A program made the position numbers and the translations under genes. This document shows positions 1 to 31,610 of a DNA stretch of 37,548 nucleotides, piece after piece. This stretch comes from Irineochytrium annulatum (taxonomy: Eukaryota > Chytridiomycota > Chytridiomycetes > Chytridiales > Chytridiaceae). The notes under the pieces were generated by a model. It did not search any database and had not been told where the DNA came from. It saw nothing but the letters and a program-made list of their open reading frames with translations. The first letter of the stretch is position 1. Every line of letters starts with the position of its first letter. Location: assembly GCA_027600665.1 (NCBI GenBank), contig JADGJL010000140.1, forward strand, positions 1 to 37,548, read 5' to 3'.

Positions 1-2101
1 GCCGGGATTTCAGCTGGTCTTGGAACCCGCCCGCGAGAGCCGCGGTGCTAGAGCCGATTGGTGCCTTCGGTTTTGCCGGTTGAAATGATTGTATTTTAGG
101 CGCAACGTAGGAACCCGGTGGCGGTGGTGGAGGTGGAGGAGGTGGAGGTCCACCAGCGGCGGCCAGCGGTGGATGCGTTGGTGGCGTGCCTAATGATATA
201 AGTCAAAAGTCATCCCATCCAAAAGGCTCGGTAAAGCTTACCACCGTTCACCGTTTCCGGTGTTGGCTCGACCTCTATGGCGCGGATGGGACGCGAGAGA
301 TTCCGATCCGAGGACGATACTAATGCATAGATCAGCCCTGCAGTCTAGAATACCGAACACAAACCGTTCTCGTTCCGCCGCGCGATATTCTGCTTATGCT
401 GATCTTGCAAGCTAAGAGGGGGCGACGCCGTATACGGAGAAATTATGCTGCCTTCGGCGGCCAGGTTCCCCATGGAGGCAGACACTATTATAGAATCGCA
501 ATGAAAAAAGGAAACAAGAGTCAACAATAGTCGCTTTGGATCAAAATAAAAGTGGCACGCACGATTTTCCGCCCTCCTGCTTATTTTCTGCATCAGCTGT
601 TCCTGCAGGGTCAAAGGTGTCGAAGGAATGGAATGTTGTTGTCTTGCTGGCCCATCTGAGAGGCTGCTTTCGTGAGAAGCTACAAGCGGTCAGCACGAGC
701 GCAATCTGGCGACGCGACATTCGCTGCATACGTTTCTCTTTGCGCTGAAGAAGATTTTGCCGGATCTGGTCCTGCAGGCTGCTTCCAGTATATCCGGGTA
801 CCACGTAATCGGCAGATAACCCAAGATTCTCATCCAAAATGGACGCTAGAGGAGAGGCGGGCGTGAGACTCTCGTCGGCACAGATCACGCATCAAGGTAT
901 GCTCATACCATTCTCTGCCCGTCTCGCCAGGTTTTGGCGTATTTGCTCGTGAAGGCTGAGCGCACTACCGGGTGGTGCTCGCGTCGCAATCGGTACCGGC
1001 TCCGAAAGGTTACCTTCCGATGCTAACACTGTTGATAGATTGAAGTGTGTCAGTAGCCACAGCGACTTTCCCCTTACCAGTCTCGGCCCGCCTCGCGAGA
1101 CTCTGCTTGAGTTGCTCGTGCAGGCTCATAGAGCTGCCAGGCGGCGGTGGTGGCGCATAATCCGCGAGGTTATTTTCGGACACGGAGGCTATCAACGGGA
1201 ACAACGCAAGATCAGCAAAGTCGAGAAGCACACCCTCTCTCGCTGAAAGCATCACCGTTCTCCGCCCGCCTTGCGATGTTCTGCTTAAGCTGCTCCTGCA
1301 GGTTAAGCGCGCCGCCGCCGACCGGCGCCATCCGTGTTTGCTCCTGCAGCCCACCGCCGCCTGTCTGAAAAGCGGACAACAGCGAAGCCGATGATGTCTC
1401 CGCGGCCACCTTGGAGTCCGACACACTCCTCCGCGGGTAAAGCGCAGACCCCGTAGACCCATCGAGACGTGCGCCACCGCCTCCCTCCAATTCCGCATGC
1501 AGTGAACCATCACCTAGCAGGGCCACTTGCACTTCAGTGTTTCCAGTGGCCGCCGCAGTTGGGGTCGGAAGGCCGCCCCACCTGTCGCCGACGACTATTA
1601 TCCCACTGCTGCGGATGCTGGCGCTGCGGACGCTCGCGCTTCGATGGGCGGCGCCAGATGAGCCTCGTACAGGGAGGAAGCCGTCGTCATCGGGCCGAAA
1701 CGGGGTGGTCACAAGGGTCGCATCTTTTGAAGGATAGGAGTTTCTTTTGGCCGCTGGGTCCAGTGAGTATCATTAAGAAGCGCGCATGATTTTTTCCGCT
1801 CTCAATCAGAGGCAAATGAGGGCGGTGCGGTGCAGCATGCATTACCTTGGTATGACTCCTTACGACGCAGCCAAAAAACAAATTCCTCAGGAGGCAGATT
1901 CTTTCCAAGCAGAGACCTCGTCCTGTCGAATCTCTCGGCCAGGACCTCGATATCACCTCGTAGGCATTCCACCGCCACGACCTGAGATCTGATCTTCGTA
2001 TGAAGCTGCTCCGCCCGCGTCGAGACAGCTCTGGTGAGGCTGTGCAAAAGGTCTTTAAGCTGCTGCGTCAGGGCCGCCTCCGTTCTAACGAGCTCGTCCA
2101 T
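1..2101 (-). CDS. Repeat-exon protein: N-terminal helical region, then Pro/Gly-rich linkers with repeated LxxQxxQxxxRR motif (3' end off window)
   Basis: Not recognised as a named family. I built nine exons by following reading frames across GT-AG junctions: 2101-1846, 1753-1256, 1188-1078, 1028-909, 845-732, 679-563, 484-365, 319-242 and 189-1 (runs off the edge). Every junction is phase 1 and keeps the frame open. Exon 1 encodes a charged helical segment of about 85 residues starting MDELVRTEAALTQQLKDLL, probably coiled coil. Exon 2 is Ser/Gly-rich. From the end of exon 2 onward each exon except exon 8 ends in one copy of a motif such as LQEQLKQNIARRAEN, LHEQLKQSLARRAET or LQDQIRQNLLQRKEK. 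Exons 3 and 9 also hold polyproline. A helical head followed by polyproline and short repeated amphipathic motifs recalls actin-regulatory scaffolds of the WASP/WAVE/WASH/FAM21 type, but no diagnostic WH2 or LFa motif is present, so this is only a guess. The start is the first Met in the open frame; exons further upstream are possible. Confidence 0.7.
365..1368 (-). repeat. Tandem motif-bearing exons (symmetrical phase 1-1)
   Basis: The end of exon 2 and exons 3 to 7 each carry one motif copy directly before the splice donor. In order the copies read LQEQLKQNIARRAEN, LHEQLKQSLARRAET, LHEQIRQNLARRAEN, LQDQIRQNLLQRKEK, LQEQLMQKISRRAEN and LQDQHKQNIARRNEN. Exons 3-7 are 111, 120, 114, 117 and 120 nt. 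Another copy (FQDQLKSR) lies at the left edge in exon 9. A degenerate LQEQTR sits upstream in exon 2. The linkers differ strongly in sequence while motif and donor position stay fixed. Confidence 0.75.
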
Positions 2102-4353: not shown

Positions 4354-6192
4354 TCATAGTAGGGAAGTGAGCTTGACGTGTTGAGCTTGTGGTAATGACT
4401 TCGTAAAGATGTCGGCAACCATGTCTTCAGTAGAGATGTACACAAGGTCGACCGTTCCTTTTGCTATCACGTCTTGAATAAACCTTCCCTTGATGTCGAA
4501 GTGCTTAACCCACGTGATGTATTAGGTTCAACGCAAGGGCGATTGCGGATTGATTATCTTGGTAGATTCGCATCGGTAATTCGAGTTGTAGTTGGAGTTC
4601 ATCAAAGAAATGCTTGCTCCATATTGCTTGCTTGACAGCCTCTACAAGAGCGTTTGTTTCGGCTTCAGCTGATGATAGCGCGATGGTTGATTGCTTCTTG
4701 GAGTAGTAGGCCCAAGCTCCCCCGCAGATGAGAAAAACCAAGCCTGATCTTGACTTCCTGTCAATCTCGTCACCGCAGTTGGCATCTGCGTAGCCTTCAA
4801 TGGCGTTGACCCCTGTTAAAGGATCCACAAAGATGGTTGGTCTTGGTCCCTTTCTGTGAAAAAAGATTCCGTAATCGTGTGTTCCTCGTACGTAAGCCAT
4901 AATGCGTCGTAATGCACGCATATCGCCAGTGCTTGCTCGTTCCATTTGGAACTGGGAAAGATAATTGACGGCATAGAGGATGTCGGGTCTCGTTTGTTGC
5001 GCGAGGTACGACAGTTTCATCAGGCATGATGTGAAAACTGTCGTATTTCCGGAGAGAGCCTTTCGTCCTCAGGGTTATGCCGGAAGGACTTTGCCATAGG
5101 TGTTGGTTGGGTTTTAACAGGTGTACCGTCCGGTTCGCCCAAAAGTTAAACTCATTGAGTAACTCGAACTGACCCATCGAAGCACCGTTGGTTGTCCAAT
5201 CGATTTCAATTGATAGAATCCACTGGATTCTTTATTATCCCGGTTAGTTATCTCCCAGTGGCCTCGAAGATCACCTGGAATGTCTTGGAGGAGCTCATCT
5301 TCTGACGCAGCGATGATGAAGTCGTCGGCGTAACAGCAGATGATTTGAATGCAATTCTTAATCTTGTCGAGCTTATAAAACAACCAGGGCTCAGAAGCGA
5401 TCTGCATGTAGCCATTCTTGGTGCATGTGGCCTTGACCGTCTCATACCACAGCATTCCAGATTGGTGTAACCCGTACAGGGCTTTTCCAAGTTGGTAGAC
5501 AAGTACCTCCCCCGTGTCGGCGTCTTATCGTTTAAATCCAGGAGCTGGTCTTACAAAGACTGGTAAGTCTATGTCCGCATACAAGTATGCGGTCTTGATG
5601 CCCAGCTGGCTGACTTGAAATCCAAAGAGCACGCTTAATGCGACGATCAGCCGGAGGGAGGTAATTCGTATAACGGGTGAATAGGTGTTGAAATCATCGA
5701 ATCCTTTTCTTTGTTGAATTCTTGGGCAACGAACGTTGCCTTAAACTTGGTGCACATGCCTCGTTCGTCCATTTTATAATCATACACCCACCTGCCTGGG
5801 ATAAGTGTATGTTGTTTCGGAACTTGGCTGAGCGGAACTCCTTTCCGGACTTTACGCTTTACAAGCTGTCTGTACTCGAGGTTCATAGCTGCAACCCATT
5901 TATCAGCATATTTTGACTGTAATGCCTCATGATGATATTTGGGGAGCTCTGGTAGACTTGATACTTGAATATGTACATCAGGTAGAACCTGTAATTCCAA
6001 ATCTTGCTCCGTTGGGTCGTATAAGATGACCGATGGAGGTTGCGGTAAATTGTCGAAGTTAAGCGCAGTCCTCGCTGCCGTCGGGACGAACTTCTTGGTA
6101 AGCTTCCCAAGGTATGTGCTCCTATGACAGCCTTGAACCGGCATATCTCGTTATGAATTTTGTTAACGCGATATGTCCTGATATAGCTCGCT
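4354..6192 (-). pseudogene. Copia-A pol, 3' part: reverse transcriptase and RNase H (degenerate)
   Basis: Read from right to left. The RVT_2 start is at about 5850-5700 (GRWVYDYKMDERGMCTKFKA). The catalytic YADD sits near 5330 in the frame containing IQIICCYADDFIIAASEDE. The RNase H part (5020-4505) has YADANCGDEIDRKSRSG, SKKQSTIALSSAEAE and DNQSAIALALN. Near 4515 a one-base shift moves the frame to VKHFDIKGRFIQDVIAKG, followed by STEDMVADIFTKSLPQ and a stop at 4354-4356. Several frameshifts separate these pieces, so no intact polyprotein can be made. The 5' half of the same pol lies beyond Copia-B, at 14282 and above. Confidence 0.9.
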
Positions 6193-6197
6193 TTGCT
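6193..6197. repeat. Target-site duplication of Copia-B, left copy (TTGCT)
   Basis: TTGCT directly left of the left LTR, identical to 14277-14281 directly right of the right LTR. Five bases is the usual duplication length for copia elements. Confidence 0.9.
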
Positions 6198-6978
6198 TAT
6201 CAGGTAAAAACCGTCGTTTCGCTATTTGATCAAGTCCGTTATAGCGGGCTTGGTCGTTGGCCGTGAGATTGCTCTTCGAATTCGTAGCGAGGCAGGTGTA
6301 TCGTTTGCTCAAGAATTGAACTTGAGATGTGCAACTGAAAAATCAATTGTTGATTGTGCGCATTCCTCCACCTGATTGGGCGTTCTGAGGCAAACGAGAT
6401 GATTGGTGCGGAGTTTGACATGTGCCCAATATTCTGACTGATCCTATGCTATGCGTCTCATTTCGAAAATGAGACGTAGCATAGTATAGTAGTGTAGTAC
6501 ACTTGTAGGGTACTATTGGTTTGTGAAATGTCATAATAGACAGCATCCGTAGTCCAGTCTAATCACTGAATAGAGTGTGGGATCGACCCAACTTTTGGAT
6601 CTCACATATATGTGTTTACACCTTATCTCGCCTCCTTGAGTAATCTTCATAACTTGGCCAATGTCGAAAAGGGGTAGCTAGTCCCTTAATCATTAGCAAT
6701 CAAGTAGATCTTCGGAGGATTCCATGGATTTCACCAACTGTATAGGCGGGTCCTTTGCTTGCGTCAGACAACGCTCGCTGAGTCTCCCTACTTTCGCTAT
6801 ACTTAAGGATCTTGACTATATTCCACCAATATGGTGTTGCTCTTTTCCAAGGAACGAGCGTGATTCCTATCGGATGGGAACATTTGGAACTTTTAGTGCC
6901 ACATCACCTTTTAGTGGTTATGGCGTATCGAACCTATATGTATACCAACATACACGTGATACTTCGTTCCGCCTGACA
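6198..6978 (-). repeat. Copia-B 3' LTR
   Basis: 781 bp, aligned almost end to end with 13498-14276. Both contain a ~10-bp-arm hairpin (here arms CGTCTCATTT at 6454-6463 and AAATGAGACG at 6467-6476). Both contain the stretch GGGATCGACCCAACTTTTGG with a single-T length difference. Open frames on the plus strand are chance. Confidence 0.92.
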
Positions 6979-6988
6979 CTCCCCCGCG
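6979..6988 (-). other. Copia-B polypurine tract
   Basis: The minus strand reads CGCGGGGGAG immediately before the TGTCAGG start of the 3' LTR, the expected position for plus-strand priming. Identical to the Copia-A tract. Confidence 0.75.
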
Positions 6989-7175
6989 ATATGTCATAAT
7001 CATGCCAGGGGTTATAATGTCTTGGTTCTCAGTCGATTCTTTTATTCTACCACTCTTAGATATTCATAAACCATGTAAAGGGCATGACTCCAATCTTTAC
7101 ATGTTGCTATGCTACTTCTGATGCGACTTCAGAAAGTTGGCATAGTCCTTCTGCTATCTTTGCATTATAGTATAG

Positions 7176-7981
7176 TCAGAGGCAATTTAAATTATGGTGG
7201 TGAACATACCATTTACGGTCAGATCTAAAATCTGCCATAATATGGAAGAATCGATATGTAAGCGTATTAGCTACAATTGAACTTGTTCCTTTCAAGTCTG
7301 CCAACGAGCGGACTCCCAGTAATTGCCTATGTTTTATAAACAATCCGGCTGGCTGTGCTTTCGTAAAGATATCAGCTATCATATCTTCTGTCATGCAGTA
7401 TTCTAAGTGCACAACTTTGTCAGCAATATTCTGCCTGATAAATGCACTTTTTATCTTGAAGTGCTTTACACGTTGATGATGAATCGGGTTTAACGCTAAT
7501 GCAGTCGTTGATTGGTTATCTTGAAAGATGTTAATTGGCAGGTTGAGCGACAAGCCAATCTCTTTCAACAGGTGTTTAAACCATATAACTGTTGTGATTG
7601 CTTCGGTTAATGCATATGTTTCAGCTTCAGTTGATGACAGCGCAATTGTGCTTTGCTTCTTGCTACCATAGGCCCACACACCATTGCTACACAAAAACGC
7701 CCAGCCCGAGCGGGACTTTCTGTCGTGTTCGTCTCCATAATTTGCATCCGCATAAATTGGGAATTGCTCAGGAGTTAGTTCATTGTAGAATAGAACTTGT
7801 TCCACTGACAAACCTTTGGAATATAAAATTCCATAGTCGTAAGTGCTGCGTAAATATTACAGTATTTGAACTTAGGCTTTCATGTCTTTTCGTGTGGCTT
7901 TACCAGCTTGAAATTGTGCTAGGTAATTCACCGCATACATTAGATCAGGTCTGGTGTGTTGTGTCAAGTACGATAGTTTCA
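7176..7981 (-). pseudogene. Copia-B RNase H domain and pol C-terminus
   Basis: Minus-strand frame with YADANYGDEHDRKSRSG, SKKQSTIALSSTEAET, DNQSTTALALN, VKHFKIKSAFIRQNI and TEDMIADIFTKAQP, the standard copia RNase H series, with acidic residues in place. Upstream, 7981-7812 encodes MKLSYLTQHTRPDLMYAVNY followed by stop codons and a frameshift before the RNase H frame resumes. It is therefore not continuous with the reverse transcriptase. The stop is at 7176-7178, about 190 bp before the polypurine tract. Confidence 0.88.
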
Positions 7982-9245
7982 TCAAGCATGAAAATACAAA
8001 GACATTTTCTCCTGTGGTAATATTTCGTCATTCTTATCGTGTCGATAAGTGATCGGCATAGGAGTTTCCTTTATTTTCGGAAATTGTCCTTCACTGGTTT
8101 CCCAGTACCCAAATTCGATCAGAATTTGTTTCGCAAACTTATGTTGTCCTATGAAAATGCCATCTTTCACTTTTTCAATTCTGATTGACAAAATCCATTG
8201 CGCTTCAGAATCGCGATGAGACACTTCCCATTGGTTATTCAAATGTTCTTTTAATTGCTTTAGCAATTCAGGATCCGAAGCGATCAGTACGAAATCATCG
8301 ACATAGATAATTAAAATATGCATTGATCGCATTGCTGTGTCAATTTTATAAAATAGACAACTATTAGCCGTGCTTTGCTTATAGCCAATCTTCAATGCAG
8401 TCTCGACGACAAGTTCATACCTTGCTCTTCCGGACTGTTTCAGTCCGTAGAGTGCTTTTCATAGTTTCCAAAGCTTACGTTTTCCGTTTTTCCCTATGGT
8501 TTCGTAACCTTTGGGTGCTCTGATGTAGACGTTTCTAATAGTATTGCATGTAGATAAGCAGTCTTTACATCAAGAGTTCCAATCGCAAGGTCGAACATTA
8601 CACATAGGGCGAGTACTAAGCGAAGCGTGAATATTTTCACAACTGGTGAATAAGTTTCGACGTAATCTCTGCTATATTCTTGGCTAAATCCGCGCGCAAC
8701 AAATCTTGCTTTAAAGCGGAGGAGATCATCCCATTCTGAAACTTTATGATCAAAAACCCATTTACTATCTCATCTTCGACTTCCTCCCAAACTTCTTGTT
8801 CTTTAAGGGAGTTTAACTCCGAATCCATAGCTGCCTTCCATTTTAGGCGGTACTTCTCATGTTCCTTTGAAAACATGGCTATATCATAGCTTGAAGGTAC
8901 TCGTGGCATTTCGGATATTTTTGTTGGTTTGTCTGGTACGACATCAAGAACAAGTCTAGGATCCATTGAAGCATTTCGGGAAATGAGGTCATGGAATTGT
9001 AAATCCACATAGTCATTTTTCATAGTGAAATCTTCGGATTCAGCAGAAGTCAATACCCTAGCATCAGCTCTTCTAGCTGTGGCAGGGTCGGTATCACATG
9101 CGTTGGAAACGGCCCTTGTGTTGATAATCCCCTTTATGATTCTAGGATCAGGTTGATATTTCCAACTTGTCATTCGCATTTTAGCGATGCTCGTCGTATA
9201 TTCTCTTTCAACACAATTCATGATTGTTACCATTGCAGTATTCAT
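7982..9245 (-). pseudogene. Copia-B reverse transcriptase (degenerate)
   Basis: RVT_2-type reverse transcriptase. The frame at 9245-8637 contains EHEKYRLKWKAAMDSELNSL, the usual lead-in to the domain. The 8636-8396 stretch contains DVKTAYLHA and, after a frameshift, ALYGLKQSGRARYE. The 8395-7982 frame has the catalytic YVDD (IIYVDDFVLIASDPE) and the downstream GQHKFAKQIL. At least two frameshifts and a stop separate the blocks, so the enzyme is dead. Similarity to the Copia-A copy is clear at motif level but low overall, so they are different families. Confidence 0.88.
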
Positions 9246-11348
9246 CTCTTGAATTTGCCTTTCACTATAATGCCGGAATCCAGAATTATCTGGTTGCGTA
9301 TTTGCACAGTGGATAATTTGATTTCACGTTCCCATTCGGGATCCATGAATTCCAAAATCTGCTCGGCATAGTGCTTTCAATATGAAACGTAGTCTTCCTT
9401 TCGACTAATACTGCTTGGTCTTCACCATCATCCAATTCGATAGCTATTTCCTCTTCTTCATCCTCTTCCGGATCGGAAATATATATGACTAGTTCTGGTT
9501 CGTTGGTTTCTTCCACAATTCCAGAAAGGTTCTATCAATGTGAATTCACCCTCGGATGGTTCAACATTTTGTCGATTTCGCTTTCGCAATTTGCGTACCC
9601 ACGGAATATCTTCGATTCCTGTCTCTTCGCGTTCTTCTTCGCTTTCTTCCTCCCCCGGAACCTCATCTTCATCCTCTTGACCTAATGGTTCAAAGAAGAA
9701 GAGATTTGGGTCCACTGGTTCTGCACCCTCGGCATCACTTATAAGTATATCTGCCTTTTCACGAGGTTGCTGTTCAGCGAATGATAATTCGCGTACTTTG
9801 CGTTGTTAAACCAGGGAGGCGTTGCTCAAAGAATCGCGCGTGGTAGACCCTTTGTATAGCTCGCGTTCGCAAGTTAAATACAAGTATAATACTGCGACCT
9901 TCCATTCCTAAGAAGAATCCCGAATCTGCTCGGGCTGCAAACTCGTTCCCTTGGTTTTTCCTTTTCCCAAAGTTCTCAATATAAGAACAAGGCATCCGAA
10001 CACTCGGAAGTGCTGGTAATCTTGCGGCGTTAATTCCTTTCCAGACCATCTTTCCCAAGGGATAAATCCATTATTTAATGTATTCCCTTTTGTTTGGTCT
10101 AAGGACCGCCAAGTGTAATTGTGGCACTCAGCCGCGTATTTCATCGCGTATGTCCAAAGGTTGCCAGGTAACCCTGCTGTTGCCAGCATGCATAATGCAC
10201 GGGTTACTAGCTCTCGAAAAGGTCTTTCATAAATGCCGCCCAGCGCTGAAACATATGGGACTATCCATTCCAACTTGATTGGATGGTTGCGGTGGGAATT
10301 CCATTCCTCAAAAGAATTCAATTTTAGTTCCCGTTCGTTGTCTGCTCTTAAGCTCTCAACATGTTTCTGCTGATAGTTTTCCATTATTTGAATGGTTTTC
10401 TTTAACGCAATCAGAGCCTGGGATTTCAAAGCAATCGTGTTAATAAAACACTACAGATGACCATGCATCCACGATCAATTGGAGGTATAGTTCTCCATTG
10501 TACGCTCTAATTGGCATCTTCCCACATAAGTCTGTTCCAATCCTCTCTAGCACCCTCGTTGCAGGTCTTTTCGTATCATACAACGGTAGAGAGCGTGCTT
10601 TATATTCAGCACAAATTAAACAGTCATCTGGATTTGGGAAGAAATTTGCCACAGTATAATGAGAAAGATTTTCATTGGTAGTTTTTGCAAGATTGACGTT
10701 TTCGTCATTACTTTCATCCCCATCCTCCTCTACTGACCTTTCGCCTTCTTGGAAAAACACTCGTCGCAGTGTATTCCTCAGGTATATCTTGCTAGGATGT
10801 CCGAGACGTTGATGCCATATCTGCATCAGTCTTATTCCTTTAGCAGAATTTTGTTCAGCATAAAGTTGAGGAGGTTGATCTACCTCAGCCTCGGGCAACT
10901 GTTGTCCCGTCGGGCTACTTTCTCCAGACGGGGCATCACCCGCCTCTCTTTCAGGAATATCCCTTCGGCTTCTTTGCGAAGGTCCTGCCTGCAGCTCTTC
11001 CGGTGCTTCTAGACGTTTCTGTGCACGCCTTGTAATGACTTCAGGAGTCAAATCCATTGGGACGTCTACGCGTCTACCATAAATCGTCGTCGACTTTGAC
11101 GCGACTTGACCAGGCTGGAGTTCTTTCACAGTAAAACCCCAACCAGTTGAGCGATATCCGCTGGTTGGCGGTGCTCTAGTCCTTTCTGGCGATTTTGCCA
11201 AAGATACAATCGTGATCTCAGGTCCCCTTAAAGGGACTTCAACTTTGGAAGATGTCTGATATCCTGGAAATAAGTGGATTGTCCTATATGTCGACAATTC
11301 CGCTTCATAAAATCTCTGAGATGAACTAAACCTCCTGTTGCTATTCAA
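9246..11348 (-). pseudogene. Copia-B GAG-pre-integrase, integrase and acidic linker
   Basis: The frame at 11348-10440 is a long Pro/Arg-rich segment, then IWHQRLGHPSKIYLRNTLRR and DCLICAEYK, the HHCC zinc-binding pre-integrase module. IGTDLCGKMP follows, carrying the first catalytic Asp. A one-base frameshift at about 10435 leads into the 10429-9908 frame with LRADN (second Asp) and GGIYERPFREL (catalytic Glu). The frame at 10058-9774 carries the typical post-integrase sequence DSGFFLGMEGRSIILVFNLR. From about 9715 to 9286 an Asp/Glu-rich linker bridges to the reverse transcriptase. Breaks at about 10435, 9908 and 9774 make it non-functional as one protein. Confidence 0.87.
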
Positions 11349-12501
11349 CCCAAGTCGATTATGGAAATATACTGATAGCGACTGGGGTCATATTTCTCGA
11401 TATTCAAGAAAAGTAGTTCATACAGGTCATTTCCAGGACTCATCATGTCTCTGAACTCAGCTGCATCACGTTTTTGGGCCGCCATGGAATTTTCCATTGA
11501 CATTGGTACGACCCTCATAACGGGTTCCCACAACCGATTTGCAGAACGTCCCAAACAAAGAGGAATGTTCGCGAGAATATCACCCGCGAATGTATCGGTT
11601 AAGTCCTCTCCATTTTGCCGTACGATATAGAGTAATCGGCCCGTTAGCCCATCTTCGACTAACTGTGAAAATTCTCCAGTCCTTGATCCTTCGGCGATCT
11701 TTTCGATCTTTGTAGTGCCGATAAGAACCTTAACTAGCCCTTCGACAATCAAGGCTTCTGGAATATAAAATTCACTCTCGCCAATCATAAAAGTTATGGC
11801 ACAATCCTGAGAATTCTTAGCCGCGTATTTCCGTCGGCCATAATCAACATAGATTGCTTCAATGGGATATACTTTACTCCAACCTCAAATCGGAGTTGGC
11901 TCAGTGGTAAGAACACATTGTTCGCACCACTATCTATGAGCGACTTAGCCGAATATTCCATTGTGCTTCGATTGTCCGGGGTCAATGTGAGGTATTCAGG
12001 GGTTTGATATGCTGGCAGCCTCAATGTCTGCTCATGGATATCCATTGATCGAGGAGTTGGACGAAATAAAACATTGAGGGGTTCTCGTGCTTTATAAGCT
12101 ATAAAAGTTCTCCCATCAATTTCGTCCATTTGTAGACTCATCGATACGTTTGCCCGAAACCCAAAACGAGAAGGTGAATGTTCGGTATGATCAGCAGCCG
12201 TATTAACAACCGCTTCCGGTTTCTTTACAATGACCAATGCCTTTGAATTCTCCACCATTCGGGCGTTAAAGGTATCATTAATCATTTCCCGCAGGTCTTC
12301 CTTGCTAACATTCAGCAACTGCTTCGTCTGGATCGCCCCTTTCTTCGGAGTCTTTACAACTTTGCGTTTATTTGGAGAGTTTGATCTGCTTCTTTGAGCT
12401 AGAGATCCTCCTTTCAGATAACATCGGTCAGCATTATGATGACCTATTGCAAAAGTTGCTTTAGTTAAGTTATTGCTTAACATAATTGGGCCGTACCCCA
12501 T
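11345..12501 (-). pseudogene. Copia-B post-knuckle region and aspartic protease
   Basis: The frame at 12501-11794 continues from the second half of the zinc knuckle (GHHNADRC) through a Lys/Arg-rich segment to SLIDSGANNVFLPLSQL near 11940. That is the D-S-G active site of a retropepsin-type aspartic protease. It stops at 11794; the next frame, 11788-11345, probably continues the protease C-terminus and spacer and ends just as the integrase frame opens. The frame changes could be mutations; I see no convincing programmed slip site. Confidence 0.8.
12444..12496 (-). other. Candidate intron (53 nt) splitting the Copia-B Gag zinc knuckle
   Basis: On the minus strand the segment starts GTACGG, contains CTTAACTAAAG (a good branch-site match) and ends TTTTGCAATAG. 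Removing it joins CNKHQGWG to HHNADRC in frame and rebuilds a Cys-His-His-Cys zinc knuckle. Without removal the frame ends four codons later in a TAA. The corresponding Copia-A knuckle (CDMHGWGGHITKDC) has no insertion. Confidence 0.55.
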
Positions 12502-13476
12502 CCTTGGTGTTTATTGCACAAGATAGCGGTCTTCGTTTTGTGCCATGACGGTCGCTGAGAGCGGTCTGCATTCTCTCCAGCGACATTTGCGATGGGAGTC
12601 ACCCGGGCTTTGCCCTTTTATAGTCACGTGTCGGCTTATAAGCCATAATAGTTTTCGCCGGTTGACCGTTTGATATTTTAAAATTCATGCCATGCAGTGA
12701 AATCAACCAGTCAAGGAGTTGATGCAATGCATCTTGCAACTCCCTTATATTCACATCCGACTTGCTACCGCGAGGCCCATACTCATGCTTCAAGATAGCA
12801 AATGCCTCGGTATCCGGTAGGTCCATCATAATCTTTGATTGTATAATCGTTTTCAGTCGGTTCCGTTGGTCATTATAGACCTCTGACTCGACTATCTGTT
12901 AGACGTCGAGCCAAGTCATTCCCGAAGGCACAGGAGTTTCAAGAGGTGGAAACTCGAACTGAGGTACTCTGGCCGACTGAATACGCCTTCATGGCTGCCG
13001 ATCTGCTCATCAAGGCCTTTCATGTATTTCTGAAAGCCCCCAACAGTCATGGTTGTGAGGTCCAATTCAAGGATCTCATTAAACCAGGCAGAGTCCGCAG
13101 TGACCTGTGATATCACTGTAAACCTATCACGTAGGTAGTTAACCATGTCCTGCACCAGGTTGATAGCGGTCAACTCGGAACGTATGACGTCTGAGCGGTC
13201 AGCCACGGCGTTCGTCAGGATTCCCAACGCTTTCTGATGTTGCTTGGAGTAATCCGTCCATGCTTTGACTCGACCATTAAAGTCAGCAGCCGTTTCGCCC
13301 TCAATCCGAGTGGGGCGAGCTGGCGTCCATGTCAAGTCCGGTGTGGTGAATGGATCAGCACACCCTTGATCACGTAGGGCTCCAAGGAACTTCGTCTCGA
13401 GCCAATATTGGTATTCTTGTAGAGTATGTCCGGTAAACTTTCCGGCCTCCACCTTCGAGGTCGATTGATTCGACAT
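12502..13476 (-). pseudogene. Copia-B Gag (degenerate)
   Basis: The start codon at 13476-13474 lies 22 bp inside the 5' LTR border. The first frame (13476-12916, 186 codons) resembles copia Gag of the UBN2 type, with AWFNEILELDLTTMTVGGFQ as the conserved core. Copia-A Gag has DWLTNFHALELTSFTVGALI at the same place. A frameshift near 12960 and an in-frame TAA near 12900 follow. The frame resumes at about 12870 with MMDLPDTEAFAILKHEYGPRG and shifts again near 12600 before the zinc knuckle. Confidence 0.85.
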
Positions 13477-13497
13477 CGCCGTTGTATCTGAAGATTA

Positions 13498-14276
13498 TAT
13501 CAGGTAAAAACCGTCGTTTCGCTATTTGATCAAGTCCGTTATAGCGGGCTTGTTTGTTGGCCGTGAGATTGCTCTTCGGATTCGTAGCGAGGCAGGTGTA
13601 TAGTTTGCTCAAGAATTGAACTTGAGATGTGCAACTGAAAATCAATTGTTGATTGTGCGCATTCCTCCGCCTGATTGGACGTTCTGAGGCAAGCGAAATG
13701 ATTGGTGCGGAGTATGACATGCGCCCAATATTCTGACTGATCATATGCTCTGCGTCTCATTTCGAGAATGAGACGTTGCATAATATAGTACATTTGTACG
13801 GTACTATCGATTCATAAAATGTCATAATAGACAGCATCCGTAGTCAAGTCCAATCACTGAATAGAGCGTGGGATCGACCCAACTTTGGATCTCACATATA
13901 TGTGTTTACACCTTATCTCGCCTCCTTGAGTAATCTTCATAACTTAGCCAATGTCGAAAAGGGGTAGCTAGTCCCTTAATCATTAGCAATCAAGTAGATC
14001 TTCGGAGGATCCCGTGGATTTCACCAACTGTATAGGCGGGTCCTTTGCTTGCGTCAGACAACGCTCGCTGAGTCTCCCTACTTTCGCTATACTTAAGGAT
14101 TTTGACTCTATTCCACCAATAACGCATTGGTGTTGCTCTTTTCCAAGGAACGAGCGTGATTCCTATCGGATGGGAACATTTGAAACTTTTAGTGCCACAT
14201 CACCTTTTAGTGACTATGGCGTATCGAACGTATATGTATACCAACACATAGACGTGATACTTCGTTCCGCCTGACA
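13498..14276 (-). repeat. Copia-B 5' LTR
   Basis: 779 bp. It is the partner of 6198-6978, with about 95% identity by eye and a 7-bp length difference near 13790. It begins on the minus strand with TGTCAGGCGG and ends CCTGATA. Gag starts 22 bp further on. Confidence 0.92.
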
Positions 14277-14281
14277 TTGCT
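14277..14281. repeat. Target-site duplication of Copia-B, right copy (TTGCT)
   Basis: Identical to 6193-6197 on the other side of the element. Confidence 0.9.
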
Positions 14282-16027
14282 CCGATTTGCAATCTTCTTG
14301 ACCGCCTTCTTGAATTGCTGGTTTGGTTTTGATGTCAACTGTTCGTGTTGGGGACGAACAATGACATGACCAACTAGACGTCTTTGCCTTAGTCGGCTAA
14401 GAGGTATATTGTCCAAATCAATGTCTTGGCCAGCAAGACGTATGCTAACTTGTTCTATTCCGTCGTTGTCATCCGACGGTATTTCCTCTTCTCCTTCCCC
14501 ATCGCTGAGTTGGATTTGGAGTTCGCCTTTTTCAACCTCGGGCTCATCAATTCCCTCATTTGGTCGATGAAGCCAAGGCTCCTCATCCAGTATCTCCTGC
14601 TCAGAAGGTTTGATTTCTTGTCGTTGTTGAGTTCTTGAGGAGATGGGGAAGGCATCCTCGAGTACGGCTATTCGATTTGCTTCGTCTGAGGGGATCTCTC
14701 CATCATCTGTTGGCTAAGCCGCAGCTTGATAGAAAGCATCCAGGTCCACTGGTTGTGCGTCTTCTTGCTCACTTGTGAGTATATCTCCTCCGGTTTGTGG
14801 TTGTTGTTTTGCAAAGGTGAGTTCGCGAAGTGTATCACGAGTAAGTCCAGGAAAACGATTTTCAAAGGATCGCACATGGTAGGCCCTGGTAATCTTGCGT
14901 GTCCATAAATTATACACGTAAGTAATTGTTCGTCCATCGAAACCTAAGAAGACGCCAGGATCCGAGTGGTATGCCATCTTTCCCGCAAAGTTATCCTGCC
15001 CTTCGCGTGTCCGTAGGTCTTTGGGAATGAGTAGAAGAACCAGGCAGCCAAAAATTCGAAAATGATCGATATTTAACGGTTTACCTGTCCATCGCTCAGC
15101 CGGGAAGAAATCCCCGGTATGCCAAAGCACATTATGGCATTCCGCAGCATAGTTAAATGCGTACGGCCAGAGCGTGGCTGGCAACCCAGCTGTCCGTAGC
15201 AAACTAAGCCCCTTCTTCACAATATCTCGAAGAGGTTGTTCTTACAAGCCTCCCTCTTGCGGAACATAGGGAACGATCCATTCCAATTTAATCGGATGGT
15301 CTCGTTGGGTTGCCGACTTATTGAATGCCTTGGACTTGTTTTCACCGTTGTCGGCCCGCAAAGATTCGACTGGTATTCTTTGATAATTCTCCATGGCTTG
15401 TATGGTTTGTTTCAACGTAACCCATGCCGCATCCTCTGATCGTAAGGCAACAGGAAAGATCATCCTTGACCAGTAGTCGATGTTGATCTGCCAGCATTTT
15501 TCCTTGCTTGGACCTAGGACGGGCATATCGCCTAGGAAATCGGAGCCAATTCGTTCGAGAACTCTTGTTGCGGGTCGTTCAGATGGTGGTGTGGGTCGCT
15601 TGTTCTGTTTCATGCCCTGACAGATTAGATTGTCATAGGGTCTTGGTAATTGCTCTATGACGATGTCACGGAGACCATTCGCCCCTCGATACGATCGAGA
15701 TAAAGAAGACTTGGGATTAAAGGTAATGCCATCTTTATTGTTTTCATTGCTAAACTTCTCCTCCCTGCCGAACGCTCGATTGAGAGTTCGTAGGACTTTC
15801 TCAGACGGGTGAGCTAACCTGAAGTGCCATAATCTGACAAGTTCAGAGTTCCTATCGAAAGGACCGTGTGAGTGCGAAGTTCGCAATGAAAAGATGTTCA
15901 CCTTTCCATATCCGTCAGCTGAAGCTTGATCTTCATCGTTGAGAGTCAGATCAATGACGGTTTGGTTCCCATCCTCGTCATAGGCCCTCTTGGGGCCGAG
16001 ACGGGACATGGCAGGAATCCGGGGCAA
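14282..16027 (-). pseudogene. Copia-A integrase and linker to reverse transcriptase
   Basis: The frame at 16027-15242 has LWHFRLAHPSEKVLRTLNRA (pre-integrase zinc module, histidines present), RIGSDFLGDMP (first catalytic Asp) and LRADNGE (second Asp). It ends at a TAA (15242-15244) within PQEGGL*EQPLRDIVKKG. The same frame then runs on to 14714 through LRTAGLPATLWPYAFNYAAE and PGVFLGFDGRTITYVYNLW. The only break across this ~1.3 kb is that TAA, where Copia-B has a Tyr codon; the catalytic Glu follows directly. From about 14700 to 14282 a degenerate acidic and basic linker leads to the point where Copia-B inserted. The reverse transcriptase continues at 6192. Confidence 0.88.
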
Positions 16028-17040
16028 ACCTATCAGGTTGAGAGCCGTGGTTGGAGTCGCGCCGGGGCCTCTTGCTATAAGGTCCGGATTGTGGCTGCGC
16101 TTGTTCCACTACCTGAATGTCGTTTGATCCACCCCGCGGATGGTGTATCTTACGCCTGGGCCGGAGCCTCCTACTCCCGGCTTTTGATTGCCTTTCCTGG
16201 GAGACTTGTAATTGCCTGAGTCGATCTCCATCTGGTCAAGGACCTATGAATCAGGGCTTCCAATCCCAAGATGGTCCTGTTGTGCGCAGGTGTAGCACAA
16301 TTGGCGGACCGGCGGTACTCGTATGGAACTTGAATATGATGATCGAGCCAGGTACGCATAACCGCTCCTCTTGGGATTGTTCTGACAATGTCGCTTAAGG
16401 CCACGGTCGGTTGAGTGAGGTCTATCCATGGGTAACCAGGATCACTCTTCACCGTATCCATGATCGGGTCCGTGGCGGCGACTTTTGCCAGCTTGGCGAT
16501 ATATTCCTTGTTTGCAGAGATTGCGCATAATTGGTGAAGCAATTGATCATAATTGCATAATTGCTAAGGAGAAACGCCGCATCATGCCCAAAGCAGAAAC
16601 TGTAATCCGGTGTTGTCAATGTCGGGATTGAAATCAACGCCTGCGGGAGATCTTCCACTAAGTAGGCATGGGAGACTGCACATTTGACCCCATTAATCTT
16701 GAATACAGCTGGTCCGCATCCGAGAATTCGTAATCGGTATCTGCCAGGTTCAGAAAGCTATTCTCTCCAAAGGCACTCATGTCTTGGAGTTGGCTGGTGG
16801 CAAAAAAAAATGCAATTCTTGCAGACCAAGGAAGACTTCGTTGGCGTCAGTGTCTAGATTTCCCGTGGTTGGCATGTTGAGGTGATCATCTATTTCCGTG
16901 GTAGGGCTATACAGTTGTGTATAGTCTATACTGATGGCAGAGATGGTCGTCTTAGCAGCCGCAAGACGAGCAACTGGACCTGATCGGATGCTACGGCCTA
17001 TCGATCCGCGGAAGCGAGCGCTTTTGCCCTTGCCCTGAGC
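16028..17040 (-). pseudogene. Copia-A protease region, heavily degenerate
   Basis: This is the interval between the zinc-knuckle frame and the integrase frame, where the aspartic protease should lie. Minus-strand frames at 16658-16449 and 16542-16171 are partly open and include LPQALISIPTLTTPDYSFCF. I find no intact D-S-G motif. Frame changes are frequent. The assignment rests on position between Gag and integrase and on the Copia-B layout. Confidence 0.5.
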
Positions 17041-18433
17041 TCAAGCGCCTTCCGTGATGATCTCACCGTCGCTTTCTTCATCGGAACTGTTGTCGCGGAT
17101 CATTTTCCGGGCTTTCTTGGTTGACTTGCCAAGGTATGCTTTTGCTGCTGACTTAAGATCCTCTTTCAACTCATCCTTGAACTCGGCCAGGGAAGCCGTG
17201 AGCATTTTCTGAGTAACCGTGCCTTTCTTGGGTGTCTTGACTTTGTGGCGTCTGTCTTTGGTCTTGCCCTTGCCGTCGCGATTGGAGTCGGTCCTACGCT
17301 GGAGGCCTTTGCAGTCCTTGGTAATGTGACCGCCCCATCCGTGCATATCGCACCACTTGGCGTCGGCATTTGGGCGCTCCGGTCGGTCAGCAGCCGAAAA
17401 TGTTTGTACGTGGATACGGCTTTTGCTTTCCGAGTTCGGGAGTCTTTGTCATGCTTGACGAGGGCTTGGAAGTACTGCCGCTTGTGACAATCGAGGAGTT
17501 AACATTGCCCTTGGCCTGAGCACGATAGAGCTGAAGGATCTTGTGAAGCTCCGTTTGAATTCGCCCAATCGACTTGTCACCGGCGGTGCCCTGGGGTCCG
17601 TATTCATGCTTGAGGATGGAGAAATGATTTTCGTCCGGTAGATCCCTTATAAACTTGACTTTGACCAGGGCCAAGGTTAGACTATCCTGGTACCTTCCCG
17701 CTTCCCTTGCGAACCAATCCTTATCTCTTCCTCGTTCAGGGGATTTCGCCTTTGTCGGGCAGGAACCGCACCGACATGTGGTCTTCCCCATGCCGCAGTT
17801 TGGCGTAGTGCAACCGTTGCTTCCCATGCGGCATTATCCGGAGAAATAGGGAGAGGAAGCGTGTATCTGAAGGTGTTGGTAGCGGTCGCCAGGAACTGAT
17901 CCATCTCTTTTAAGTATTTGATAAGCGCTCCGACCGTGAATGAGGTGAGCTCCAAGGCATGGAAGTTGGTGAGCCAGTCGGTGTCAGCAGTGTGACCTGC
18001 ATTCTGTCGGAAGACTTGATGGATGCAGTTGATTTTCTGATCAAGCCTAACCAGGTCATCGAAAGTCTTGCGTACTAATTCTGTGCGGTGCTGAATACCA
18101 CTCCAGAGGATACCGACTGCCTTCGCGTGCTTGTGGAGATAGTCGTACTCCTTCCTAAGGCGGGTATCACGTTCAGACTCCGTTTCGATTCGAGCTGCAC
18201 GGCCCACAGCTGCTCCGATGGCTGGTACTGCAGGGAGAAGCTGAAGGGCCTCGTCGACATCTCCGGTGCCGGTCAGACGCGGTCCGGTGTAGACAGACCA
18301 CTTTGATTCCACTTGAGAGTTGAAGGGAGTTCCTGTATTTGGTATCTAGCCAGAGCTGAAGGTCCGAATCCGTAGTGCCGGTGAAAGGATTTGGCAACTT
18401 CGTGTTGGAGGAATTCGAGGTATCGTCAGACAT
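17041..18433 (-). pseudogene. Copia-A Gag with CX2HX4HX4C zinc knuckle (frameshifted)
   Basis: Gag starts MSDDTSNSSNTKLPNPFTG at 18433, 38 bp from the 5' LTR remnant. The frame shifts near 18320 to the 18312-17677 frame with the Gag core DWLTNFHALELTSFTVGALI. It shifts again near 17800 to the 17827-17387 frame (LPDENHFSILKHEYGPQG). It resumes at about 17380 with KWCDMHGWGGHITKDCKG and a basic, then acidic, C-terminal segment ending at 17041. The knuckle has His in place of the second Cys of the classical CCHC. At least three frame changes make it inactive. Confidence 0.85.
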
Positions 18434-19423: not shown

Positions 19424-22400
19424 TTAAATTTCGATGTTACGAGAAACCTCTCGCAATAGCGCGCCAATTTGTACGCATCGTAGGGATTCGTCCATTCGTG
19501 ACTGATGTTGTTCCTATGAGAGTGTCAGCAAGGTCAACGGCAACATGTATTCCACACCTGCTCGCCAATAAATTCATCAAACAATCCTTCAAAAGACAAC
19601 ACCATCCCGTAGAAAGTAGTCAAGCCAACGCCCAAATCCGCACAGACTTTGGCGATCCCCATTCCAGTATACTCCGTGCTATGGCCCTCCAGTGTGACGC
19701 TTTGTCTCGCCTCAAAGTACGTCTTCATCTGGTTGTTCACACCAGCAAGCAACTGGTCTCTGCGACTAAGAAACGCCTGTACAGCATCCGGCTCTCGCTG
19801 TGCACAGATTAGAGTAAGAAAATTCGCACATGGGTTTCTCACCTCGTTAATATCTAAAACGCGATGAGCGGCCTTCAACAAGGCATCCTCGTCCAGCCCA
19901 TCACCCGGATCATCGCTTGTCTCGCCATTGGGGTTTAACAAGAGAGGGCAATATCCTATGCTGTCTCCGCGCAAACCCTTCATGGCGTCGGATATCGCAC
20001 ACAGTTGTTTATACGCGTAGGCATCACTCTTGGCACCGCCCGGCATGTGGAGAGCTTTCATCTCATCGACCAAGGCCAGCCAATCTTTGTAGTACAACAC
20101 CGCCAGTCCAAAGGCATCGGGGAAAATTCGTAGAGAACCTTTTGCTACGTCAAGCGTAACCACTCGGCGTTTTGCAACAACATCTGGAAGCGACGCGCCG
20201 GCGCCAGCGAGTATTTGGGCAATTGACGGGGAAGGTGCCGGTGATAGTACAGATCGCGGGACTTGATTCTTTAAGTGTTGCCTATGGGGCAGCTGGTAAC
20301 GCAATCCCTCCGGAATGAAAGGTACCGGCAGGCCCATAAAATCTGTAAACGGTAATTATTTTATAGTAAGGGTTTCAAACCGGTACCGATAATTATTTCC
20401 GGCTTGAAGCTTTGGTCAATGCACGCTGAGATATCCCCTTTGAGCAACCTTTCACGTTCAGGCCGTTCCTCCGCCCCATCGCCAACGACTAAAGCTTGCA
20501 ACTCTTCTGCGAGCGCCGCCGCCTCAACGTTGTCAGATTTTCCTTTGAGCAGTACCGTCACTAAAGATTTTCCCGGAACGGAGATATTGTCGCCGCCGGC
20601 CACTTCGGCTTTAACAATCGTGACTTGGGAAACATCCTCCAATCTCAACGCTGCGGTTATATCGCGAGACAAAGCGTCACAAGCTTCTGTTGCAACTGCC
20701 AACTCCACCGGCAGAATGTTCAGCCGAAGTACGACTTGGACAGCTGCTTTCGGAACGGAAAGCAAGCGAATTGACGCGCTTGTTTTGGATCTTAAAGGTG
20801 CAAGTGTACTAGGTGCATTTGAAATGCCGACATCCCGCGAGCTAGCTCCGTCTGTTTGATTCGAAAGGCTGACAAATGCAGATGGTGCATTTCCGTAAAG
20901 CAGCTGGGTTTCTCCATCAAATCCGTGGAGACCGCCGATTTCATCTGAAGCAGCACTTGCCTCGTTGCCATCATCGCTTCCAAGTCCCGAAATTCCGTCG
21001 AATGACAGCGTCGATAACGATGTGTCTCTAGATATGTGAGGCTCCAGAGTCTCGGCGGAATAGGAAACTTCACTGGAGTCCGATGTCACGGACCCTTTCC
21101 TCCGAAATTCGTGGGAGCGCCGCCTTCCGGGACGACCGGCCGGCAAATGATCCATGTCGGCGTCGTGTGGAAGAGGAGTTGCGAGATAGTCCTCGCTTGA
21201 ATATGGCTTCTCGCCTTGCATGGGGAGAGGTATAAACGCGCCAGCGCTTTCGTACTCTTCGCTGAAGTAGTTTTCAAGGTCGTTAAGCATCTCGACTAAG
21301 ACCGCAGGGTTGTCCGGCCCAAATTGCCAACTTGAGCCATCGGACGATGCGTCAGCGACATCACCATAACCATACTGCGGCCTGTTCGCAGCCCGTTGCG
21401 AATGCGGAAGAGGTGATGGGTGCCGTGGCACTGTCGGCGACTGAGTTTTGCTAAGGTCTGAGCGTTCAGCAAATTTGCGTAATATGGGAGGCAGGCCTCC
21501 AACTTCTGGCCCGAGCGCGCATGTGCTCGAAACTCCCGCGATATTATACCGCGTAGACTTGGATGACTTAACTTTATCCAGGCAGCGCCAGCCGGATTCG
21601 GTCTCTTCGCGTATCGCAGACCTCACTTCTTTGCCGCCCGACAATATCTGTGAGATTTCCATTGTTCGAACACTTCGGGTGATCCAGCGCATGGAGTTTC
21701 CTCCACCCCCGAAAAGAATCGCTTTCAAGCTCGTATCTGAGTTCGAGATTCCATTCGCCATCACCTCGTCAATAACCTCGGAGGCAGAATCAGCAACGTC
21801 GGAAGCCAGTAACGCGACCAAAGGAGACAGAAGATCCTCTTCTAAGTTTAGTTGATGTGAGCCAACTGAAGAGGTCCAATCGATACTTTTCGCTGCAGGC
21901 GCTGCGGCTGTCGTACTAGCGTTATTCCCACCCCACCCCGAGCCCCATCCTGCTCCCCAGGGACCAGTCGACGTTGGCGCGGGGCGTCTGGAGTTCAATA
22001 CCGGTAATAAAGCTTTCAATATCTTCAGCGATCGCTTTTTATAGAAGGGCACTGAGTTTCGGAGGAGACTTATAATAAATTGAAATGCTGCGGCTTCATG
22101 TTCCGGGAAAAATGCATCTCGCAAAATAAGAACAGTCTGATTTAAAAAGTCTTCTTTGGATCGAAATCGCTTCTTTGAATAGCTCGAAAGCAAGCGCGCT
22201 AAGCTCTGCTTGCCTGCGCGCTGTGCTTGCTGTGACAGCGCCTCAGCAACTGCTAAACCTTGCTCGGTTGAAACTTTGGCAGATTCGCCTCCGTCATCCA
22301 GAGGATTAATTTCATAGCCTTGCAGTAGGCGTGGCAAGATTGCGAGAAAAGAGAAAAGGATTCGCGATGGTTGAGCATCAACAAAAAGGTCGTCTTCAAT

Positions 22401-30284: not shown

Positions 30285-31610
30285 ATGCCTGTGGTCTCCA
30301 TCCGCAAGCACTTGTACACTACGAAGTCTAGCACGCGGGGTTACGGCGTCCTTGGCCGGAGCTCGAACAACCTGAAGATGGGTATATGGGAATTGCATGC
30401 GTTTAGACCCGCTTACCGCCAGGGTAGGGATTGTCGGGCTGCCCAATGTCGGAAAGTCAGCATTCTTTAACGTGCTGACGGCGAGCTCGGTTCCAAGCGA
30501 GAACTTCCCTTTTTGTACAATCGACCCAAGTGAGGCCCGCGTTAACGTTGCGGATCCACGCCTAGAGACATTGGCTACAATGTACAAACCCAAAGCCGTG
30601 ATTCCGGCGTTCCTTACCGTTGTCGACATCGCTGGCCTGGTAAAAGGGGCGGCCGCTTCTGGGGAAGGGATCGGCAATAAATTCCTTTCCGACGTCCAAG
30701 CGGCGGACGGCCTGTACCATCTGATTCGCGGCTTTAAATCTCCGGACGTCATTCATGTCGAGGGTTTGCATTGACGACTTGGATGATCGCTAAGCTTATC
30801 CGCAGGCTCCGTGGATGCGGTCCGGGATTGCGACATCATAAAGACGGAGCTCAGGCTGAAGGATGCCGAGCAGGTTGCGACCATGCGCGCCAAGCGCGCC
30901 CGCGCGGTCACCTCGGACCGAACGGGAGCGGCTGCGATGGAAGTGGCTATTTACGATCGCGTGACAGGGCTGTTGTTGGAGGAAAATATGGACGTTAGAG
31001 ACGTGGAGTGGTCAGTTGTGGAGGCGGAGGTCCTGAACCGGCTCGCCCTTCTGACGGCAAAGCCGGTCGTATACCTGGTAAACGTCAGCGAGGAAGACTT
31101 TGCAGCGGGGTCCTGCGAGGCTGTGGAAGCGGTGCGGGCACACGTACGACGGGATGATCCGGTTCTTGCGTTCTCCGCCGAGCTTGAGGAGATGTTGGCG
31201 ATGACGGAGGGAGAGGAGGAGAAGATGGAATACCTCGCGAGTCTTGGGCATAATGTGAACTCTGCGCTGGATGACATCGTCTTAGCCGGTTACAAGGCGA
31301 TGGGCCTGGAGTACTTCTTCACGGCAGGGCCCATGGAGGTCCGCGCCTGGACATTTAAGTCGGGCAGCAAATGTCCTCAAGCGGCAGCTGTAATACACTC
31401 CGACTTTGAGAAGGCTTTCGTTGCTGCAGAAGTTATGCGTTTTGAAGACTTAAGAGCGTTGGGTTCAGAAGACGCGCTGAAGAAAGAGGGGAGGCTTGTC
31501 ACGAAAGGAAAGGATGGTATTATCCAGGTACTCATGGCGCCGCGGTCAAGCTAACATATCCATAGGATGGCGATATTTGTCATTTCAAGACAGCGAAAGT
31601 AGCAAGATGA
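30285..31610 (+). CDS. OLA1: Obg-like ATPase 1 (OLA1/YchF family)
   Basis: A P-loop ATPase of the Obg group that binds ribosomes in the cytosol. Four exons: 30285-30381, 30428-30763, 30806-31527 and 31566-31610, giving 399 aa, the normal family length. Introns are 46, 42 and 38 nt; each contains a pyrimidine-TAAC/TTAC-like branch element near the acceptor. Motifs: GLPNVGKS (G1, residues 36-43), [11 protein letters not shown] (G3), [10 protein letters not shown] (the family NxxE replacing NKxD, which explains ATP over GTP preference), and a C-terminal TGS domain with [14 protein letters not shown]. Splicing out the last intron restores the C-terminus [12 protein letters not shown]. The start at 30285 gives the conserved [20 protein letters not shown] lead-in; an upstream Met in the same open frame (30171) would add 38 residues. 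Confidence 0.95.

Follow-up and report, generated by a model that had tools for sequence, protein, structure and literature searches.

A chytrid gene with introns inside each tandem short-helix repeat may encode a multivalent actin-binding protein

A WH2 domain combined with proline-rich sequence is a known pairing in actin polymerases (PMC5753033, partial text), and the FAB helix of Dictyostelium VASP is described as similar to WH2 (PMC11231147, partial text). The available part of the same paper reports that Spire has not been found in fungi. Filament binding is also reported for an unfolded stretch of lamellipodin, through weak electrostatic contacts (PMC4543927, partial text). Chytrid fungi crawl by means of actin-filled pseudopods (PMC5461030, partial text) and retain actin regulators that are missing from yeast (PMC12050087, partial text). 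Here we describe a gene of the chytrid Irineochytrium annulatum (order Chytridiales) that encodes tandem copies of a putative short helix next to proline tracts, analyse the anatomy of its repeat and compare it with these systems.

Gene model and anatomy of the repeat

The stretch of DNA that was analysed, referred to here as the window, is an entire contig of 37,548 bp from an assembly of 26.9 Mb in 1,082 contigs. The repeat gene lies on the minus strand at the left contig end, where it begins with an ATG at position 2101, the first ATG downstream of an in-frame stop, and remains open where the contig ends at base 1 (Table 1). It had originally been placed at 1..1368, an extent that the present model replaces. 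The model, which is sequence-based, has nine exons and eight GT...AG introns of 45-92 nt and leaves a 532-residue open frame. It reproduces the eight junctions of the original prediction and also the near-equal length of exons 3-7 (111-120 nt). All eight introns are in phase 1, and therefore each internal exon is symmetric. Of the six junctions that follow a motif copy, two have just one AG 40-110 nt past the donor, which serves as acceptor in the model; the other four have three to six candidates. Introns 3, 5 and 6 contain no in-frame stop, so intron retention is possible by sequence, and for intron 6, at 78 nt a multiple of three, it would keep the frame. A search with the first 180 bases of the contig found no contig overlapping the left edge, and Rfam and tRNA scans of the window gave no matches.

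Table 1. Modelled exons and motif copies of the repeat gene, listed from the start codon towards the contig end
Feature	Position	Strand	Content and basis
Exon 1, 256 nt	1846..2101	-	Begins with the ATG at 2101; coiled coil predicted at the N-terminus; model and AlphaFold
Exon 2, 498 nt	1256..1753	-	Ser/Gly-rich region, half copy, complete copy 1 at 3' end; donor GTGATG
Half copy LQEQTR	1332..1349	-	Preceded by GGGG, without second half; translation
Motif copy 1	1257..1301	-	LQEQLKQNIARRAEN; model and motif regex
Exon 3, 111 nt	1078..1188	-	Tail ASVSENNL, PPPPP-containing linker, copy 2; single candidate acceptor 40-110 nt past donor
Motif copy 2	1079..1123	-	LHEQLKQSLARRAET; model and motif regex
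Exon 4, 114 nt (120 nt with acceptor 6 nt upstream)	909..1022	-	Tail ASEGNL, linker, copy 3; 1 of 5 candidate acceptors
Motif copy 3	910..954	-	LHEQIRQNLARRAEN; model and motif regex
Exon 5, 114 nt	732..845	-	Tail ASILDENL, linker, copy 4; 1 of 3 candidate acceptors
Motif copy 4	733..777	-	LQDQIRQNLLQRKEK; letters DQIRQ common to an N-WASP WH2
Exon 6, 117 nt	563..679	-	Tail PSHESSL, linker, copy 5; 1 of 6 candidate acceptors
Motif copy 5	564..608	-	LQEQLMQKISRRAEN; model and motif regex
Exon 7, 120 nt	365..484	-	Tail LSASMGNL, then linker and copy 6; single candidate acceptor 40-110 nt past donor
Motif copy 6	366..410	-	LQDQHKQNIARRNEN; model and motif regex
Exon 8, 78 nt	242..319	-	Tail VSSSDRNL, end without helix copy; 1 of 4 candidate acceptors
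Exon 9, open at contig end	1..189	-	11-proline run, then start of copy 7
Truncated copy 7	2..28	-	GFQDQLKSR; letters close to copy 2 of the metagenome protein P0001 (SFQDQLKNRLAQR)

The anatomy of the repeat can be read directly from the sequence. When all six reading frames of the window were scanned with a regular expression for the motif, it matched six times, always on the minus strand and at the ends of exons 2-7, directly before the donor as had been predicted, and not once in 100 single-base shuffles of the window. Seven copies had been counted originally; six are complete, the seventh is cut by the contig edge, and exon 2 holds an additional half copy. Each complete 15-residue copy ends one base short of the exon end, and the six copies are spaced 37, 38, 38, 39 and 40 residues apart in the model. 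The 15 residues to which the motif had been assigned are only the first part of the unit. Following the intron, the next exon begins with x-S-x(2-4)-N/S-L, in which S and L are present in all six tails and N in five of six (S in copy 4). Because this conserved S, N and L stand at the start of the next exon, the repeat is a unit of 21-23 residues, from first to last Leu, with an intron inside it: L-x-[DE]-Q-x-x-Q-x-[LI]-x-[RQ]-R-x-E-x-x-S-x(2-4)-[NS]-L. Alignment over the modelled junctions shows L, Q, Q, R and E, followed by S and L, in all six copies. The linkers are thus unrelated in part, as first described, but the repeat takes in the six to eight residues with which each exon opens.

Invariant residues of the repeat are encoded by varying synonymous codons (CTG, CTT or TTG for Leu1, CAG or CAA for Gln4, and TCC, TCG or TCT for Ser17). 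Codon positions 1 and 2 agree more than position 3 in all 15 copy pairs, and third-position identity between copies is 0.13-0.67, which means that they are well diverged. Synonymous variation and the greater agreement of the first two positions indicate that the motif is conserved at the protein level, by selection on the protein. Leu or Ile occupies positions 1, 5 and 9 in most copies. By the Eisenberg moment, none of 12 helices, taken from this gene and its relative described below, was significantly amphipathic (p 0.23-0.99).

In all six units the intron splits the codon next after position 15, between its first and second bases. The six junctions from exons 2/3 to exons 7/8 thus cut the repeat at an identical codon position and all in phase 1. 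This is strong sequence evidence that a single symmetric exon was duplicated serially to build the array, in agreement with the exon duplication proposed at the outset. The duplicated unit would have been a phase-1 symmetric exon of about 115 nt, in which the tail of one repeat is joined by a linker to the head of the following one.

For exon 1, AlphaFold without alignment predicted a long helix at residues 2-65 and a short helix at residues 71-84, with mean pLDDT 92.2, and in the best register 13 of 19 a/d positions of the helix are hydrophobic. The end of exon 1 (1847-1888, minus strand; EEFVFWLRRKESYQ) bears a faint likeness to the motif, with L-R-R-x-E just before the phase-1 donor; judged by its letters, it may be what is left of an earlier copy.

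Elsewhere on the contig, broken frames at 4505-18345 on the minus strand appear by eye to be decayed Ty1/copia-type retroelements. Seven minus-strand frames were scanned, and two of them had sub-threshold matches to Pfam gag_pre-integrs (19.7 and 22.6 of 28.4 bits). Two long open frames at 20361-28152 (minus strand) encode a cell morphogenesis protein of the PAG1/MOR2 type; the scanned part, 24019-28152, matched MOR2-PAG1_N at 157.8 bits. On the plus strand, 30376-31554 encodes a YchF/OLA1-type GTPase in two frames, the second of which matched YchF-GTPase_C at 91.6 bits. A short intron seen there by eye, at about 30,760-30,806, has a donor, GTTTGC, that resembles the intron 7 donor of the repeat gene.

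A second carrier of the repeat

Using model residues 228-460 as query, we searched a collection of 5.8 billion sequences (5,890 candidates) and found a sole match at E <= 10, an unnamed 386-residue JGI metagenome protein (P0001) with E 0.07. This value alone is unconvincing, but the sequence of P0001 is convincing as that of a relative. It carries six copies of the motif in a single frame, three on each side of four poly-proline tracts (8, 6, 7 and 7 prolines). Single-pair BLASTP against the repeat array gave E 3e-10, and the Smith-Waterman score was 114 compared to 45.8 +/- 7.3 (maximum 82) for 1000 shuffles of P0001. With the six motifs masked the score dropped to 40, so the similarity is carried wholly by the motifs. 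When scored with a matrix made from the window copies only, the P0001 copies stood above their own shuffles with p 0.0005 for five of six and p 0.0045 for the remaining one. Copy 6 of P0001 (EQLKNRLKKRADGGSNANLQE) matches window exons 3/4 (EQLKQSLARRAETASEGNLSE) in having the helix and then S-x-x-N-L at the same distance. Because P0001 reads this continuation in one frame, it supports the exon 3/4 splice junction from outside. Among the P0001 copies, S is found at that place in two of six and NL in one of six.

The two proteins are alike in carrying the motif six times around poly-proline tracts, and both contain at least three copies of [SNT][LF][QH][DE]Q[LIH][KRM]-x-x-[LIA] together with a poly-proline tract. 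They share the tail S-x-x-N-L through copy 6 of P0001. They differ in that no long N-terminal helix is predicted in P0001 and in that its copies lie in one frame. As judged from these sequences, the repeat is common to two carriers, so the motif is not private to the window gene.

These findings bear on whether the modelled gene is an artefact, that is, a decayed gene or a set of chance frames instead of a spliced gene. The stop-free introns 3, 5 and 6, with intron 6 retainable in frame, would suit such a reading, as would the result of a whole-protein search, which found no relative of the gene product at E <= 1, nor any protein of the window gene itself, among 7,989 candidates scored. It is opposed by protein-level conservation with synonymous change, by eight in-phase junctions and by P0001, which reads the same junction-spanning motif in one frame, and we regard it as very improbable.

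AlphaFold without alignment predicted helices in P0001 at residues 29-44, 71-84, 110-124, 216-232, 253-266 and 289-302, one on each of its six copies (14-17 residues each). Outside the copies only one five-residue helix and two short strands near the C-terminus were predicted. Confidence was low (mean pLDDT 56.9, pTM 0.18), with 179 of 386 residues at pLDDT < 50. If the copies paired with one another or with the N-terminal helix as short coiled coils, the protein would be a self-assembling or condensate protein that requires no outside ligand. Leu or Ile at three positions spaced by four, the long N-terminal helix and the low-complexity linkers are all compatible with this. Set against it are the 15 residues of the helix, short for a coiled coil, and the separate helices in the P0001 prediction, although a single chain at pTM 0.18 is a weak test; self-pairing of this kind appears improbable to us.

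Searches for known families did not return the repeat. Pfam gave no match on the spliced 532-residue model, chance-level matches only on the repeat array (E 0.19 and 0.5, neither of them WH2), a best E of 4.2 on P0001, which is not significant, and one match, not WH2, on 12 single copies (E 0.029). NCBIfam had no match to P0001. In the PDB, the best sequence match to the window protein (E 0.14) lay outside the repeat array and the best match to the motif profile had E 1.1. The best PDB match to P0001, Spp42 (E 0.015), spans the poly-proline region and copy 4 and was taken as compositional. In the I. annulatum genome, two repeat protein queries found only chance-level places outside the gene (contigs C153, C148 and C385; E 0.94, 0.55 and 0.65). 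No such repeat was named in the open-access literature searched, part of which was available as partial text, and among the matches listed for motif peptide strings in open-access papers none was on actin by title. Thus the motif, which the original prediction did not recognise, has no significant Pfam or PDB match and is also carried by P0001. On the basis of the Pfam, PDB, NCBIfam (P0001 only) and open-access literature searches, we consider the repeat to be undescribed and unnamed.

Further relatives were sought in nucleotide collections. For P0001, 126 peptide-pattern stretches in viral contigs and 373 in genome contigs yielded no confirmed relative. A 29-base motif core led to two viral and 21 genome loci, with one regular-expression match in 21 of the 23 and none in two; these are attributed to chance because none has a second copy in the same frame. 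The PAG1/MOR2 protein is conserved in fungi. In a control search with the copy encoded on this contig, scored against the 7,994 candidates that had most words in common with it, the sole match at E <= 1e-20 was the query itself. The control suggests that the collection holds few fungal proteins, so the absence of relatives says little about how rare the repeat is.

Resemblance to WH2 and Ena/VASP helices

The original prediction held that the motif is not a WH2. In the I. annulatum genome, the WH2 profile PF02205 matched one place, a verprolin-like gene on contig C145 (32.6 bits), and none of the six motif copies. The copies fall below the Pfam cut-off and have no LKKV-type element, so we rejected a classical WH2. 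By eye, L-[KR]-[KR]-[VTA] follows the helix in none of the six copies; in register stand [AS]RRA (four copies), LQRK (copy 4) and ARRN (copy 6), and only copy 4 has the leucine of the WH2 tail. The helix half is closer. Measured against the WASP-family WH2 helix pattern given in PMC3298513 (partial text), copies 1-4 fit five of six positions and copies 5 and 6 fit four of six. Comparison by eye shows Q or H at position 2 in all six copies. The other five positions fit in copies 1-4; copy 5 has M at position 6 and copy 6 has H at position 5. It is therefore conceivable that the copies are true WH2 domains that have diverged past the Pfam profile, in a Spire-like tandem-WH2 nucleator. We consider this unlikely: the nearness of the helix half to the WASP-family pattern speaks for it, yet the same profile that misses every copy scores the verprolin-like WH2 of the same genome well, and no copy has the tail after the helix.

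We scored ten known peptides with a matrix combining the copies of both proteins and compared each with its own shuffles. The VASP FAB (residues 259-278) has its sequence printed in the available text of PMC10340426. It stood most above its shuffles among the ten (p 0.0009, or about 0.009 after ten tests), followed by the Mena FAB and N-WASP WH2 b (both p 0.006), formin DAD (p 0.014), N-WASP C (p 0.021) and N-WASP WH2 a (p 0.027). N-WASP WH2 b had the top raw score, 9.2 compared to 6.8 for the VASP FAB. The WIP WH2, the verprolin WH2 of the genome, the VASP GAB and thymosin beta 4 were not above their shuffles (p 0.14-0.49). The ungapped alignment of the VASP FAB extends over the L-A-R-R found in copies 2 and 3. 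Its score occurs about once per 3,334 residues in background open reading frames and lies below the leave-one-out scores of the members (18.2-42.7 bits). The best background score, 22.4, exceeded that of the lowest member, copy 3 of P0001, in a background that is biased upward by loci fetched by motif pattern. By hhalign, the probability of relationship was 3.6% for the WH2 set and 4.9% for the VASP FAB. Taken together, the helix half shows a weak likeness to the helices of WH2 and of the Ena/VASP FAB, to which profile comparison gives no significance. The original statement consequently stands for the WH2 domain as Pfam defines it and needs qualifying for the helix half.

For the part of the gene that lies on the contig, Ena/VASP membership was rejected and Spire membership was not supported. 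Pfam found no EVH1 in the ATG-started modelled N-terminus, where the predicted coiled coil lies here, and no KIND domain in the first 119 residues or in the 532-residue model. The VASP tetramerisation domain PF08776 had one sub-threshold match in the genome (contig C54, 18.3 of 25.8 bits); the C-terminus of the window gene lies beyond the contig. No Ena/VASP protein was found in the genome, and both WH1 matches, each under the cut-off, fall on contig C767 in one gene. That gene (locus L043, 1-1600, minus strand) has WH1-like exons, a CRIB/GBD-like stretch seen by eye and poly-proline, runs off the contig start and, from its sequence, looks like WASP.

Possible function and comparison with known systems

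We tentatively favour, at slightly less than even probability, a multivalent actin-binding protein in which tandem WH2 or Ena/VASP FAB-like helices lie beside profilin-binding prolines and are clustered N-terminally. The window protein is probably disordered over most of its length. Flexible linkers would present six complete short actin-binding helices and part of a seventh, which a poly-proline tract precedes. The N-terminal coiled coil would cluster chains, profilin-actin would be recruited by this tract together with the PPPPP linker of exon 3, and the helices would bind actin in the manner of the Ena/VASP FAB or the WH2 helix. The resulting cluster could hold a filament and feed or bundle it. 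By analogy, helices on flexible linkers with proline tracts behind a coiled coil form the layout of a multivalent actin polymerase, and a profilin gene is present in the I. annulatum genome. We infer actin as the ligand from the weak resemblance of the helix half; profilin recruitment, oligomerisation and any effect on filaments are likewise proposals. Given how lamellipodin binds, basic residues alone could give some actin binding; the conserved helix would then be unexplained.

A different partner is quite possible, if somewhat less than probable. The repeat could be a multivalent docking helix for an adaptor, a kinase, a coiled coil or a membrane protein, making the protein a scaffold, with the Ser of RRxENxS as a regulated site. 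The most conserved positions are polar (Q4, Q7, R12, E14 and S17), a hint that the partner is specific and offers more than a hydrophobic groove, and the formal similarity to WH2 or FAB is insignificant. Actin is favoured over such a partner by poly-proline beside the helices in both proteins, a trait of actin polymerases, and by the FAB-like L-x-E-x-x-x-x-x-L-A-R-R of copies 2 and 3, as in actin polymerases.

If the repeat of the multivalent actin-binding protein proposed here does bind actin, the gene would be a clear case of valency built by copying a single symmetric exon, with exon borders inside the binding units, and its product an unlisted multivalent actin regulator in crawling chytrids. 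The way in which filament binding depends on the number of short-helix copies would then become open to a simple test. A broader proposal, which we put forward as rather doubtful, is that helix-RR-x-E-x-x-S-x(2-4)-N/S-L is an unnamed actin-binding module of a wider eukaryotic family, represented by this chytrid gene and P0001, in arrays of at least six around profilin-binding prolines, serving as multivalent filament polymerases or tethers in lineages without Ena/VASP, and that in the chytrid the valency rose stepwise through duplication of one exon.

Compared with described systems, the Ena/VASP FAB and the repeat share the ungapped helix register L-x-E-x-[LM]-x-x-x-L-A-R-R. In contrast, Q4, Q7 and the S..NL tail are absent from the FAB, and the conserved glutamines are hallmarks of neither WH2 nor FAB. 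Whereas a VASP chain has one FAB, the window protein has six complete copies plus a truncated seventh. Tandem WH2 proteins such as Spire and the WASP family resemble it in their arrays of short helices, divergent linkers and the WH2-like start of the helix, and the WASP family also in the neighbouring poly-proline; unlike them, the part on the contig has no LKKV-type tail and no WH2 or other Pfam domain. The verprolin/WIP-like gene of the same genome likewise combines a WH2-type helix with poly-proline, but it has a single classical WH2 with LKKT and was not matched by the two repeat protein queries.
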